A stretch of DNA of 64,000 nt from Cynocephalus volans (lineage: Eukaryota; Chordata; Mammalia; Dermoptera; Cynocephalidae): assembly GCF_027409185.1 (NCBI RefSeq), contig NC_084468.1, positions 48,733,001-48,797,000 of the forward strand. Direction: 5' to 3'. Positions 1 to 61,381 of the stretch are shown piece by piece. Position numbers and translations under genes: made by a program. Below the pieces are notes generated by a model that saw nothing but the letters and a program-made list of their open reading frames with translations, had not been told where the DNA came from and did no database searches. The first letter of the stretch is position 1. Each line of letters begins with the position of its first letter.

Positions 1-86
1 TCAGCCAGTCTGTGTCTTTTGATTGGGGAATTTAAGCCTTTTACATTAAGAGTTGTTATTGAATAGTGTTGATTTATTCCTAGCAT
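1..86 (-). pseudogene. L1 ORF2 N-terminus, cut by window edge
   Basis: An ATG at 86-84 (minus strand) opens 28 stop-free codons that run off the window. The protein includes ITTLNVKGLNSP and then IKRHRLA, the conserved start of the L1 ORF2 apurinic endonuclease domain. ORF2 normally supplies endonuclease and reverse transcriptase for target-primed reverse transcription. About 190 bp of spacer separate it from ORF1, as usual in L1. Whether the rest is intact cannot be seen. Confidence 0.75.
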
Positions 87-276
87 TTTTTTGATTGTTG
101 TTTGGTTGTCTTAGGTGTCTTTTGTTCCTTGCTTTCTGATTTACTGTTTGGTTTCTGTGTTTGTTGGTTCCTTAGGTTGTAGATAACCTTTTTGTTTGTT
201 TGTTTTCTCTTCATGAATGCCTTTTTTATTATACTAGTGGCTTTAGATTTTTCTTGGGTTTTTATGGTAGTGGTAG

Positions 277-1261
277 TTATTTTTCAGGAACCAAACCCAG
301 TACTCCCTTGAGGATTTCTTGTAAGGGTGGTCGTGTAGTGGTGAACTCCTGCAGTTTTTGTTTATCTGAGAAATATACTATTTGCCCTTCATTTCAGAAG
401 GATAGCCTTGCAGGGTAGAGTATTCTTGGCTGACAACCTCTGTCTTTTAGTATTTTGAATATATCATCCCATTCCTTTCTGGCTTTTAGGGTTTGTGATG
501 AAAAGTCTGATGTTAGCCTGATTGGGGCTCCCTTATAGGTGATTTGACGCTTCTCTCTTGCAGCTTTTAAGATTCTCTCTTTGTCTCTGAGTTTTGCCAA
601 TTTGACTGTAACATGTCTTAGAGAAGACCTTTTTGGGTTGAATACATTTGGAGATCGTTGAGCTTCCTCGATCTGAAGATCTTTGATTTTTCCTATACCT
701 GGGAAGTTTTCTGCCACTATTTTGTTGAATGTGTTTTCAATGGAATCTCCATTTTCCTCCCCTTCTGGAATACCCATGACTCGGATATTTGAGTGCTTAA
801 GGTTATCTGATATCTCTCTCAGATTTTCTTCAGTGCTTTTTATTCTTTTTTCTTTCTTTTTTTTTGTCTGCTTGTGTTATTTCAAACAGCCCATCTTCAA
901 GTTCAGAGTTTCTCTCTTCAACTTCCACAAGCCTGTTCATTAAGCTCTCCGTTGTGTTTTTTATTTCGCTGAATAACTTCTTCAGATCGGCAAGTTCTGC
1001 TACATTTTTTTTCAGGGCATTGATTTCCTTGTACATTTCCTCTTTCAGGTCTTGTATACTTTTCCTCATTTCATCATGATGTCTGGCTGAGTTTTCTTGT
1101 ATCTCATTCAGTTTCCTTAGAATTATCACTCAAAATTCCTTGTCAGTCATTTCAAGGACTTCTTGTTCTATAGAAGCTAGAGCTTGAGATTTATTATCTT
1201 TTGCTGGTGTACTTTCTTGATTTTTTGTATTTCTGGTATCTTTTCTTTGATGTTTATTCAT
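277..1261 (-). pseudogene. L1 ORF1 (RNA-binding chaperone), disabled
   Basis: ORF1 starts at an ATG at 1261-1259 and ends at a TAA at 279-277, giving about 328 codons, the usual ORF1p size. An N-terminal basic region is followed by a coiled coil (NEIQENS through SELEDG, roughly 1129-880). The RRM-like and C-terminal domain lies at about 777-394, with RRSSLRH-like and YKGAPIRLT motifs and PRILYPARLSF near its end. ORF1p trimerises and binds L1 RNA. The copy is broken: a stop after the first 40 or so codons, a reading-frame change between about 829 and 778, and a stop straight after the LSF motif at 394. Coding sequence resumes after the last stop as far as the natural terminator. Confidence 0.9.
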
Positions 1262-2039
1262 TGTGGCAGGGGGTTTCACAGTCCACAGGTTTGACACTAT
1301 TGACTGACTAAGATGTTGCTGTGGTTGCTAATTTGGTATGCTACCTCAGTGACTCCCTGTTCCGTGCACTCTGGTCCGGGCTGCTGGGATGCGCTGAGGC
1401 ACCACAGAGCGTGTGGTCTCTGCAGAGCTTCCCCTTCCCCTGCAGGATGTCTCCCTGCTCTGTGCGCGCTAGGCTGGGCTTGGGATGGAGCCCGGTGGCG
1501 GTGGTGAAGTCTACCTGCTGCTGGATTGCGTGGCAGCAGCGTGGATTCTGTGGAGTTCCCGCCTCCCCTGCCCAATGTCTCCCCACTCTGTGTGCACTGG
1601 GCTGGGCTGGGAATGAAGCCGGGTGGCAGCAGGGAAGCCTACCTGTTGGATCACACAGTGGTGGCCCCGCAGGGCGTGTGGTCTCCGTGGAACTTCTGCC
1701 TCTCCCGCTGGACGTCTCCCTGTCTCAGCCGCGGTCGGGCGGGTGGGGGCGGGCATCAGAAGCCATGGTCACAGCTGCAGCCCGGGTGACACATGCCAGC
1801 TCAGTCCTCCATGTTTCCACCTCTGCGTCTGTGGCTGCGATGCGGGCTGCGGGGCACCGGTGGGTCGCGCTCGCGGGTTGGGGGAAGATTCCTGGTTCTC
1901 GGCAGGGTAAAGACACCGTTTCAAAGCCATTCCTTTGTGCCGATTCTGCTACAGCTGCCTCTGGCGCGGGCCTCAGGCTGCTTCTACTCCTGGCGGAAAA
2001 GCGGCGGGCAGCTCTCCTCTTCCGCCATCTTGACCTCCA
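1262..2039 (-). promoter_or_regulatory. L1 5'UTR / internal promoter, GC- and CpG-rich
   Basis: This is the leader of the minus-strand L1. It is far richer in GC and CpG than anything else in the window. The distal end (2022-2032) has a CAAGATGGCGG-type YY1 site, known in L1 to set accurate initiation. Positions 1942-2012 resemble part of a MaLR LTR, and 1355-1717 consists of three imperfect tandem units. In intact L1s this region drives sense transcription and often also antisense transcription into the flank. Activity of this copy is inferred, not shown. Confidence 0.75.
1355..1717 (-). repeat. Three imperfect tandem units in L1 5'UTR
   Basis: Three successive units can be aligned by eye at 1581-1717 (137 bp), 1453-1580 (128 bp) and 1355-1452 (98 bp, internally shortened). 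On the minus strand each begins with GAGAC followed by a purine-rich run, then CCACACGC/CCACGCT-like text, and ends in a CACAGAG(C/T)(A/G)GG-like block (more diverged in the last unit). The arrangement resembles monomeric L1 promoters known in rodents. The units are diverged from one another, so the array is not a recent expansion. Confidence 0.65.
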
Positions 2040-2429
2040 CTCTAAAAGTTCCTCATTTAATTTTTATTTATTCCTGATGATACTGATGGTGACAATTTTA
2101 CATATAATATATTTTTTTCACTTTGTCAACTGTGTATATTCTTCTTCTTCTGATGTTTCTCATCTTTTTGTTACCTTTTGGGCTTTTCATATAGTAAGGC
2201 TCACAACTTTTGTCTCACATTTTTTACTTTCCTATTTCTTTATTATTATTTCTTCCTTTGGTAGTAATTATATTATTGTAACCATTCAGGTATTTATTGT
2301 TTATTTTTTGTCTACATTGTTTTTCAACTGTTAAAATTTGAGAGTGCTCTGTTAAAGTTTCCAACCACAGATGTGTTTCTATTTCTCCTAGCATTAATAA
2401 CAATGTTGCTGCTGTTTACATCATGTTTT
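2040..2429. other. T-rich flank of the L1, nothing recognised
   Basis: This sequence is markedly T-rich on the plus strand with few TA or TGA triplets. The antisense reading frame of the L1 5'UTR therefore stays open to 2334. No repeat family or gene was recognised. Confidence 0.5.
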
Positions 2430-44974: not shown

Positions 44975-45543
44975 AGATGATTTGAAAATGCTTCATACTG
45001 TGTGATTTCAAATACATAACATTCTGGGAAGGGAAAAACTACAGAGAGTAAACAAGAGCAATGATTGTCAAGAGTTGGGGGAAGGGAGGGATGAATAGGT
45101 GGAGCAGAGCATTTTTAGGACAGTGAAACCATTCTACATGATACGATAATGGTGGGCATATGTTATTATATTTTTGTCAAAACCCACAAAATGTACTATG
45201 AATAGGTGGAGCAGAGCATTTTTAGGACAGTGAAACCATTCTACATGATACGATAATGGTGGGCATATGTTATTATATTTTTGTCAAAACCCACAAAATG
45301 TACAACATTAAGAGTGAACCCTAATTTAAACTATAGACTTTAGGTGATAATGCTGTGTCAGTGTAGATTCATCATTTGTAACAAATGTATCATTCTGGTG
45401 GGGAATGCTGATCGTGGGGGAAGCTGTGTTAGTGGGGGAGGAGTGGGGATTTGGGGGTGTAAGAGAAATCTCTGTGCTTTCCATTCTATTTTTTTTTTTT
45501 TGTAAACCTAAAACTGCTCTAAAAAATAAAATCTATTTTAAAA
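44975..45543 (+). mobile_element. Old L1 3'UTR fragment, sense
   Basis: TTCATACTGTGTGATTTCAA, then GGGAGGGATGAATAGGTGGA, a GTACAACATTAAGAGTGAAC block, a G-rich run (45412-45460) and the end AAAACTGCTCTAAAAAATAA match the 3'UTR of L1M-type copies. It carries an exact tandem duplication (45091-45303). Confidence 0.8.
45091..45303 (+). repeat. Exact tandem duplication, 107 bp period
   Basis: The segment starting ATGAATAGGTGGAGCAGAGC at 45091-45197 is repeated from 45198. I see no difference over the 106 bases to 45303. The duplicated unit is internal L1 3'UTR sequence. Confidence 0.97.
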
Positions 45544-52394: not shown

Positions 52395-53342
52395 ATGACA
52401 CCACCAAAGCATTACAGTAATTCTCAAGTACCAGAACCTATAAAGCAGGAAACAGTTAAGTCATTTGAGATGACTGAAAAGGAATTCCAAGCAATGATCT
52501 CCAGGAAACTCAATGAGATACAAGAAGACTCAGTTAGGCAACATAATGAAATGAGAAAAAAAATATTCAGGATACGAAGGAGGAACTTTACTAAGAGATT
52601 AATACCTTAAAAAAGAATGGAGCAAAACTCCTGGAACTGAAGTATTCATTCAACAAAATGAAAAACATAATCGAGAACTTAAGCAACAGTTTAAAGCAAG
52701 AAGAAGAAAACATTTTTTATCTTGAAGATAGTCTTTTTGAAATAACGTAGGCAAACAAAGAAAAGGAAAAAACTAATAAAAAAAAAAAAAGAAAATCTAA
52801 GAGAGCTAAAAGACAACCTTCAGTACACAAACATCCAAATCATGGGTAATTCAGAAGGGGAGGAAAAAGAAAAAGGCATTGAAAACTTATTCAACAAAAT
52901 AATAATGAAAAACTTCCAAGGTAGAGGGAGAGAAATGGACCTTCATATCCAGGAGGTTCAAAGATCCCCAAACAGATGTAATCCAAAAAGATCCTCTCCA
53001 AGACACATGATAGTCAAAATGGCAAAGCTCAAAGACAAATAGAAAATCATAAAAGCAACAGGAGAAAAGCATCAAGTCACCTAAAAGGGACCCCCCATGA
53101 GAATAAAGCAGACTGCTTAACAGAAACTGTACAAGCCAGAAGAAAATGGGATAATATATTCAAAATACTAAAAGAAAAAAAATCACCAGCCAAGAATACT
53201 ATATCCAGCAAGGCTATCCTTCAGAAATGAGGGAGAAATAGTGTATTTCCCAGAAAAACAAAAACTGTGGGTGCTCACCAGCACACGGCCAGCCCTTCAA
53301 GAAATGATCAAGGGAGTCTTGCATCTGGAATCCGAAAAATGA
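52395..53342 (+). pseudogene. L1 ORF1, disabled
   Basis: The ATG at 52395 opens 71 codons ending in a coiled-coil start (MTEKEFQAMISRKLNEIQED, then SVRQHNEMRKK). A second open piece at 52842-53042 has MGNSEGEEKEKGIENLFNKI and QRSPNRCNPKRSSPRH, the start of the RRM region. The C-terminal domain at 53200-53342 reads in another frame to a TGA at 53340-53342. Total length is about 316 codons. Frameshifts and stops make it nonfunctional. It is an independent copy of the same gene type as 277-1261. Confidence 0.88.
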
Positions 53343-53363
53343 TTACTATCACAAATATACAAG

Positions 53364-54465: not shown

Positions 54466-56184
54466 TTACATACAGTAATAGGAAACAGCAAATACCTTGT
54501 TTGAATTGATTACAGAAGCATAATTAAGAAATAAATGTGTAGTGTTCTTTCTTGGCCAAACTATGAGGTACCTTTGTTAGAAGTTATGAGAACCAAGAAG
54601 CAAACTTGAAGCCCAATCCCAATTTAGGACTGGGTAAAAAGTATAGGAACAGGACATGGTTTTATACACTATTATACAGTATTATGCACCCATTATATCA
54701 TGATACTCTTTCCATATATAATACATAGTAAAAACAATGTTAAACTGTGAAATAAATATAGTAATGCCCAACTTAGTACTATTTCCTGTGATAACTACTT
54801 GAGTATTTAAATACATCAAACCTGTCAAAATATTCTTTCTAGTTTCCATCTTTACTGTTGCTGTAAGCATTTACCATAATATTACACATTCTAAGATATT
54901 AAGGTATGAGACTGTCAGTTTCTACACTAAGAATGAAGTTTGGATGCAGATAGGGTAAGATAGAATACATTTTCTAAATCCATTCTTAATATTTAAAGTT
55001 TATATAAGTGTGTGTGTGTGTGCATATATATATATATATTTTTTACATTTTCTTAAAGACTACAGGAGATCAGACCTAAAAATGTCACAATATTATTGAT
55101 TTTATTCATAACATAAAGAAATTAAAACTAAGGAATTCTTTATTTGGAATTCAAATTAATGTTTGTGACATTTGGGTTAAATTTTATAACTAGAGTAATT
55201 TTTCAGACATAAAAAATGGGAAATAAACCTATTGAATTCCAAAATAATGTTATTTGTCTATAAAAGAGGTCAGTTTTGGAGTTTTACCACAGCTTCTCTA
55301 ACAATATATTCTTCATCCTCAATTTACATATGTAAAATTGTGAATTGCAATACTGAGAAATATATTTCCAATATATCTTTTTAAGTTAAATGCAGGTACC
55401 AATTGATGAAATGTGGTCATTGTAAAATCTATTGCATATAAGAAGAAATCAAAAGTTGCAAAGTCTTAGTTAATTGATTTTGGGATATTTTCAAATGAAT
55501 AGAAGTTTTTGATTTAAGGGAAATATTAAAGTATAGGAGAGTGGAGTACTTAAACTTGGAATAGCACATAAAAGGAAAAGAGAACATCCCAGAAGACTTG
55601 GGCTCTGAAGGAAATATTAAAGTATAGGAGAGTGGAGTACTTAAACTTGGAATAGCACATAAAAGGAAAAGAGAACATCCCAGAAGACTTGGGCTCTGAT
55701 GGAGAAATAAAAGGCTCAGTATGTCATTAATGATAGTTAACATGTTTATAAGTTTAAGGACAACCTATTTAACCTTTATTCTCTTTTTCCATCCATATCT
55801 GTAATTTCATAGAAGACATGGGTGAAAAAATATTCATAGTAGATGTTTGACATTTACTAGGACTACACTGACAAATTCTTAATTACAATAATTTTGGATC
55901 TGTTATACATGCAGCATAAATTCTTTGGGACCTAAAACTGTGACTGGAAAATAGAAGAGTTACAGTAAATATTTATTTAATTACTGAGTATTTCAAAAGA
56001 ACTATAGTATTTAAAATCATAGGTAGAGACTGGCAATGTAGCTTTAAGAACCAAATGTTGAGTCAGTTAGGCTTAATCCCTAGATAAGTGACTAAAAATT
56101 CAAATTTATGTCTCAGTAAAGTTTACAAATTACCACATGTCATAGTTCTTAGTGGCCTCTCAAGTATACTCAATCTACAAAAGT
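54466..56184. other. No recognised gene; one tandem duplication
   Basis: Apart from a short TG/TA microsatellite (55008-55040) and the duplication at 55519, no repeat family or gene was recognised. Confidence 0.4.
55519..55699 (+). repeat. Exact tandem duplication, 91 bp period
   Basis: GGAAATATTAAAGTATAGGA begins at 55519 and again at 55610. The two units run in parallel to GGGCTCTGA with no mismatch that I can see. A minus-strand open frame (55429-55743) shows a repeated peptide only because of this duplication. Confidence 0.97.
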
Positions 56185-60748: not shown

Positions 60749-61136
60749 TGATGGAGTTTGGATGTATTGTCCTTCCAGAACTCATGGAAATCTGATCTCC
60801 AAAGTTGGAGTTTGGGTCATGGGGGTGGATCCCTCATGAATGGATTAATGATCTCCCTAACTGGGGGATTAATGAATGAGTTCTCGCTCTATTAGTTCCC
60901 ACAAGAGCTGGTTGTTTAAAAGACCCTGGCACCTCCTCTCTCTTTCTTGCTTCCTCTTGCCATGTGGTCTGCTTGTACCTGCCGGCTGCCTGCTGCTTTC
61001 TGCTACGAGTAGAAGCAGCCTGAAGCCCATGCCAGATGCAGCTGTCCCAGAATCCTAAGCCAAATAAACCTCTGTTTGTTATAATTTACCCAGTCTCAGG
61101 TATTTCTGTTATAGGAACACAGAACAGACTAACACA
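60749..61136 (+). mobile_element. MST/THE1-like MaLR LTR within L1
   Basis: The 388 bp LTR starts TGATGGAGTTTGGATG. It contains GGGTCATGGGGGTGGATCCC and CTCTTGCCATGTGG, then AATAAACCTCTG and ATTTACCCAGTCTCAGG, and ends ACAGACTAACACA. Flanking 5-mers TAAAC and CAAAC agree at four of five positions, and L1 ORF2 reads through when it is removed. It is a solo LTR. Positions 60985-61054 resemble the L1 5'UTR at 1942-2012. Confidence 0.88.
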
Positions 61137-61381
61137 CAAACTATCCTATAAAGAAATTAAGAAAACAACTCCATTTAAAACTGCATCTAAGAATACTTAG
61201 GAAAGAACCTAACCAAAAAAGTGAAAGGCCTTTTTACATCAAAAACTATGACATTGATAAAAGAAATTGAAGATGACACAAATAAATGCAAGATATCTCA
61301 CATTCATGGATAAGATAAATTAGTATTTTTAAAATGTTCATACTACTCAAAGTGATCTATAGCTTGATTATAATCTTTATC

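Follow-up and report, generated by a model that had tools for sequence, protein, structure and literature searches.

The window, by which we mean the whole stretch of 64,000 nucleotides of Cynocephalus volans DNA analysed here, begins within an L1 element and contains, far downstream, an LTR that shares a short segment with the 5'UTR of that L1. The features on which the argument depends are as follows, with L1 nucleotides (nt) counted from the 5' end of the element and motif boundaries marked by a slash.

1 to 2042, minus strand: 5' part of an L1 element, whose 5' end lies at about 2040-2042 and whose 3' part lies beyond the start of the window
2012 to 2042, minus strand: proposed exon 1, L1 nt 1-29 and the two bases before them, (AG)TGGAGGTCAAGATGGCGGAAGAGGAGAG
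1942 to 2011, minus strand: proposed exon 2, LTR-derived, L1 nt 30-99; 59/71 identities to the LTR of the window, with edges that correspond to LTR splice sites
1841 to 1941, minus strand: proposed exon 3, host-derived, L1 nt 100-200, with a counterpart on contig C13
1398 to 1722, minus strand: diverged tandem units further down the L1 5'UTR, seen as self-matches
60753 to 61138, plus strand: MST-like MaLR LTR, multicopy, inserted in L1-like sequence
60985 to 61054, plus strand: LTR copy of the shared segment (copy L011 of the LTR set), in which GG and CTAAGC take the place of the AG and GTAAGC of other copies

The element at 1-2042 is a LINE-1, as the stop-free stretch of its ORF1 contains both L1 ORF1 domains of Pfam, Transposase_22 (PF02994, 1e-25) and Tnp_22_dsRBD (PF17490, 5e-11). 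It is 75% identical over 886 columns to a second L1 in the window, at 52465-53346. The tandem units of its 5'UTR match one another at 76-77% (1413-1520 to 1541-1648, and 1398-1457 to 1663-1722). The LTR has a TATA-like box (TTTAAAAG) at 60915, an AATAAA at 61063 and the character of a multicopy unit of LTR size; these features do not single out MaLR, and the names MaLR and MST are our assumption as to its family. The shared segment lies between these two signals, with 8 nt separating its end from the AATAAA. It would thus belong to the transcribed part of the LTR and not to its promoter, the start site itself being placed by inference.

The match that the first-pass annotation had described between the two segments was reproduced in full. 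The alignment of the minus strand of 1942-2012 with the plus strand of 60985-61054 has 71 columns, of which 59 are identical, and one gap; within the window BLAST gives the pair an E value of 1.1e-12. A 17-mer is identical in the two, as had been noted, and the mismatches are mostly transitions (7 of 11, 5 of these in CpG context). A chance match was rejected on the basis of a shuffle control: the local alignment of L1 and LTR scores 78, and none of 300 dinucleotide shuffles of the L1 5'UTR scored above 30. Three other MaLR-like LTRs tested in the window gave scores against the L1 5'UTR no different from those of shuffles. The shared piece has sharp edges. The adjoining sequence, 28 nt on the upstream side and 25 to 80 nt on the downstream side, shows no alignment better than those obtained with shuffles.

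The genome of the same species (2.81 Gb, 130 contigs) was searched with L1 nt 1-99, which gave 877 first-look candidates; 40 were scored and yielded 41 matches. Forty of the 41 are 95-100% identical over nearly the whole 99-nt query, the window's own included, and the possibility that only this L1 copy carries the segment, or that it is a single-copy accident, is thereby ruled out. The idea that the L1 simply sits inside an LTR was also discarded: the LTR match stops 28 nt inside the 5' end of the L1 and is present in other L1 copies too. In all 40 fetched copies the segment lies between the same neighbours, with the proviso that the query contains the segment and members of the family without it are invisible to such a search. 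With the LTR as query there were 7131 first-look candidates, of which 40 were scored, at 87-100% and with the window's own included, and 30 of these 40 places were examined. The L1 and LTR versions of the segment differ in a consistent manner. A run of four T is found in 40 of 40 L1 copies, counting one that reads TTGT, and its extra base in 1 of 30 LTR copies. At another position 39 of 40 L1 copies read TAG and one reads TAA; AG is found there in none of the 30 LTR copies. Judged by these differences, the two versions are separate states. The majority sequence of the L1 segment has up to 65/71 identities to single LTR copies and 49/57 at the lowest, among 30 LTR copies.

The ends of the segment are informative. 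In LTR copies they read AG/CTGCC...GAATC/GTAAG, that is, an acceptor-like edge ahead and a donor-like edge behind. The AG precedes CTGCC in 10 of the 30 copies, a GT follows GAATC in 16 (GTAAG in 15 of them), and both edges occur together in 8. The LTR of the window has neither splice site, and other LTR copies have probably lost theirs through CpG decay. Splicing at these LTR sites would explain why the homology stops so sharply. If the LTR piece is an exon, the L1 stretch that comes next is expected to begin at an acceptor in its own source. A pattern made of AG and the 26 nt that follow, with one mismatch allowed (and hence blind to L1s with other bases before nt 100), has one match in the genome, at C13:25835367-25835467. 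That site is preceded by AG and followed by GTAAGT, its flanks are ...CTACTTGTTTTAG and GTAAGTGG, and neither L1 sequence nor the LTR exon lies beside it. Up to the donor, it agrees with L1 nt 100-199 at 87 of 100 positions when compared with the window copy and at 94 of 100 when compared with the majority sequence of the 40 copies. Nucleotides 100-200 of the L1 are accordingly best read, from this counterpart, as a host exon. Exon 1 and the LTR exon are absent from the 10.4 kb upstream and the 7.0 kb downstream of the C13 exon; two LTR-like pieces do lie nearby, both downstream, antisense and without the segment.

The sources of the two upstream exons were sought in the same way. A query that combined the TAG state of the L1 with the LTR donor behind it, with one mismatch allowed, gave 73 matches, and TAG itself was found in one of them, on C12. 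This LTR has AG and GTGAG at the edges and 65/71 identities, and its T-run is unlike that of the L1. No sequence like exon 1 is present in the 8.8 kb fetched around it, and it is at most a candidate for the source LTR. The proposed exon 1 is kept in the 40 L1 copies, of which a few differ in the first bases. Its exact pattern followed by GT occurs 29 times in the genome, each time on contig C120; the two occurrences that were read are L1 copies with a changed base and were rejected as the source of exon 1. As an observation apart, these 29 copies of a single L1 5' end that has the changed base (loci L081 and L082) all lie on the same strand of C120, a contig of 7.94 Mb, at a spacing of mostly 140-240 kb with two gaps near 480-540 kb. 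They suggest a multi-megabase amplified L1 array, two of the 29 copies having been read.

Additional sequence is found upstream of the L1 start in many members of the family. A leader shared with at least one other copy is present in 17 of the 40 L1 copies: X1 in 8, X2 in 5, X3 in 2 and X4 in 2. In the remaining copies the upstream DNA is unshared, by eye GC-rich in some and plain flank in others; in copy L051, also by eye, only the last part of X2 is left. X1 has 22 matches in the genome, all of which were scored; 8 belong to the 40-copy set and the other 14 were fetched. Twenty-one of the 22, including 13 of the 14 newly fetched, are joined to an L1 5' end, which means that the X1 chimera has been amplified. 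The remaining match, on C3, covers positions 47-175 of the query, at 87%, and continues as ...CACCAGTCAG/GTAAGCCC, the exon ending in TCAG/GTAAGC with a donor. Among the 21 joined copies, 11 have the junction TCAG/AGTGG and 10 a junction four bases shorter; alternative splicing or one small deletion would each suffice for the difference. In L010, which has the longest X1 leader, a stretch between GC-rich pieces resembles by eye what we take to be a MIR, and from this copy repeats may have served as exons in leaders more than once.

Of the five genome matches of X3, two are L1 copies, two are pieces of host sequence on C1 and one is a related site on C4. The two host pieces lie 22 kb apart on C1 and are fused in the two L1 copies. 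Exon A ends in GCGCACAG/GTGAGA and exon B starts with GGTCCCAG/AAGTAG; a GT at the end of exon B is absent today in both genomic places. X2 and X3 have a 28-nt block in common and differ on both sides of it, a pattern of the kind that alternative splicing would give. It was also observed that the L060 leader continues into the sequence that precedes host exon A (compare L083) and that L052 has another piece there; one host transcript seems to have been captured with two different starts or as two isoforms. In L044, a GC-rich leader is followed by a second LTR exon with the same edges and then by the L1 start. This exon has 68/70 identities to LTR copy L032 and at best 64/71 to the segments of L1s. 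Being closer to the LTR than to the L1 segments, it must have been captured separately. In one leader copy, a search for a target site duplication found no shared word of at least 10 bases; by eye, an 8-base match follows the tail and precedes the leader.

The common denominator of the added exons is that they end at splice donors of their sources: TCAG/GTAAGC for X1, GTGAGA for exon A of X3 and GTAAGT for nt 100-200, with the sources on C3, C1 and C13, respectively. The evidence supports, at the level of sequence comparison, the view that the LTR sequence entered this L1 by RNA splicing and that this was one of several captures. Very probably, then, the 71-nt segment is an LTR-derived exon that was spliced together with a host exon into the L1 5'UTR of a family that keeps gaining leaders. 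The events may be pictured as follows. Splicing of a transcript would have joined three exons ahead of L1 sequence, namely a short 5' exon, one located within an MST-like LTR and a host exon of 101 nt, the LTR exon using the acceptor CAG/CTGCC and the donor GAATC/GTRAG. The spliced RNA would then have been reverse transcribed and inserted, and its descendants would make up the present L1 family, whose 5'UTR regularly begins with the exon chain. Later, exons of other host loci would have been joined to the 5' end of family members, the LTR exon would have been joined once more, and some of the added leaders would have been amplified. What we infer in this scheme is that the exons were joined by splicing, in cis or in trans, that the new exons would have promoter activity, and that the events took place in this order. 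The first-pass annotation had suggested capture of LTR promoter sequence by an L1, or the reverse. Of this, capture stands, in the favoured direction from LTR to L1; the promoter part does not, as the segment lies downstream of the TATA-like box. Splicing as the means was absent from that proposal.

How the last joining step came about is the point at which another mechanism deserves most attention. Reverse transcriptase could have jumped from the 5' end of the L1 RNA to other RNAs, with no splicing to the L1 at all. The leaders do join at the L1 5' end or a few bases from it, and no acceptor AG could be recognised where the L1 begins, at which point the junctions vary by a few bases (the two junctions of X1 and GAG in L044). 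Among human L1 chimeras, too, joins have been described that lie within 10 bp of the L1 start and use no splice site of the L1 (PMC13174262). However, the added pieces end at splice donors and consist in turn of exons spliced together. The donor RNAs, at least, must thus have undergone splicing, and a jump would not favour exon ends. Such a jump also leaves unaccounted for the position of the LTR exon between exon 1 and the host exon. We regard template switching as improbable, although in the form of switching onto spliced RNAs it is, as an account of the last joining step, the strongest competitor of splicing. Capture at the DNA level, in which an LTR inserted into, or recombined with, the L1 5'UTR and deletions left 71 bp, could draw on the abundance of MaLR-like LTRs, given the thousands of first-look candidates (7131), and on some fetched L1 copies that by eye are apparently inside LTR-like sequence. 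It would have to place both ends of the segment at splice sites by deletion, next to a stretch that is itself a host exon with intact splice sites in its source, and to do so again in L044, which repeats the same two edges independently. This makes it a very improbable course of events.

The opposite direction of transfer, with the LTR family taking the stretch from the L1, would be consistent with the divergence of those MaLR-like LTRs of the window that look older, which is too great for the stretch to be recognised in them. Against it, the stretch lies in continuous LTR sequence with splice-like edges in the LTR, and in the L1 it adjoins sequence that has a host source. Nor, judged by identity at non-CpG sites in the fetched sets, are the LTR copies the younger ones. 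Mean pairwise identity in 200 random pairs is 0.890 for L1 nt 100-500 and 0.900 for the LTRs, or 0.935 and 0.912, respectively, without CpG sites; the copies compared are those nearest to the query and not a random sample, and the identities are not family ages. They suggest families of roughly similar age, the LTR family perhaps being the older. We consider transfer from L1 to LTR extremely improbable. Transfer from LTR to L1 is favoured because the piece ends at LTR splice sites, because the adjoining L1 stretch has a host source of its own, and because another L1 leader, that of L044, captured the LTR version again.

The 5'UTRs of L1 lineages have been replaced again and again, by sequence that in most cases has no known origin. 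The closest parallels to capture by splicing come from L1 chimeras of the human genome, 17 of which are described as carrying pieces of mRNA or lncRNA, several of them ending at splice donors (Law and Burns, 2026; PMC13174262). The described set includes one promoter co-option (RAP1GDS1-L1PA2) and one chimera that retrotransposed again, and 5'UTR swaps by recombination with other RNAs are offered there as a speculation. The present family resembles these chimeras in having first exons that end at splice donors on nearly full-length L1, with some joins that lie at the very first bases of the L1 and involve no L1 splice site. Unlike those 17 insertions, as the source describes them, here the regular 5'UTR of an L1 family holds LTR and host exons, and one leader has reached 21 copies. 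No LTR-derived exon is reported in the parts of that paper covered here, whereas one is present in this family. A second parallel is the exon trapping of SVA subfamilies, as described for SVA_F1 with a MAST2 exon and the chimpanzee pt_SVA_D6 with a STK40 exon (PMC6139936). In these, too, a GC-rich host first exon spliced to a retrotransposon founded an amplifying subfamily, some members of which have exons of other genes (PMC6139936). However, SVA is a non-autonomous composite (PMC6139936), whereas here the element is an L1 of autonomous type and one of the exons comes from an LTR.

SpIREs are likewise the product of spliced L1 RNA that was retrotransposed, with splice-edge structures in the 5'UTR, but they are described as losing 5'UTR sequence by splicing within the L1 and as evolutionary dead ends (PMC5860796); here exons were gained and the family expanded. 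The L1s of horse and rhinoceros are described as having repeatedly recruited new, non-homologous, GC-rich 5'UTRs, some with tandem repeats and in one family by extension upstream (PMC5872511). That account gives no source for the new 5'UTRs in the parts covered here, whereas in the present family sources of some of the parts are identified. A literature search at the level of titles and abstract openings found no paper that reports an L1 5'UTR with an LTR exon. Single L1 chimeras and exon trapping by SVA are known; an L1 family whose 5'UTR regularly holds LTR and host exons joined by splicing looks new.

On balance, we think it likely that turnover of the L1 5'UTR in this mammal is an RNA process, in which a spliced transcript with an exonised LTR was captured, leaders from different host loci continue to be added by splicing and some leaders amplify as new sub-lineages. 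If true, splicing would be a general answer to how L1 promoters are replaced without intermediates. Since the unspliced counterpart of the host exon survives with intact splice sites and four leaders occur in at least two copies each, the question of the source of 5'UTRs becomes directly testable in this genome.

Rfam, applied to the window and to three L1 loci, and ARAGORN, applied to those three loci, found nothing. Among outside collections there were no matches in viral contigs, phages or plasmids; two matches in genome contigs were judged to be due to chance, as they match the window over stretches of 21-26 nt at best. After the LTR, from 61466 onward, the window contains what looks by eye like a processed pseudogene, presumably of lactate dehydrogenase B. 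Two short tandem duplications that look recent are found at 45091-45303 (107 nt at 100%) and 55519-55713 (91 nt at 98%).
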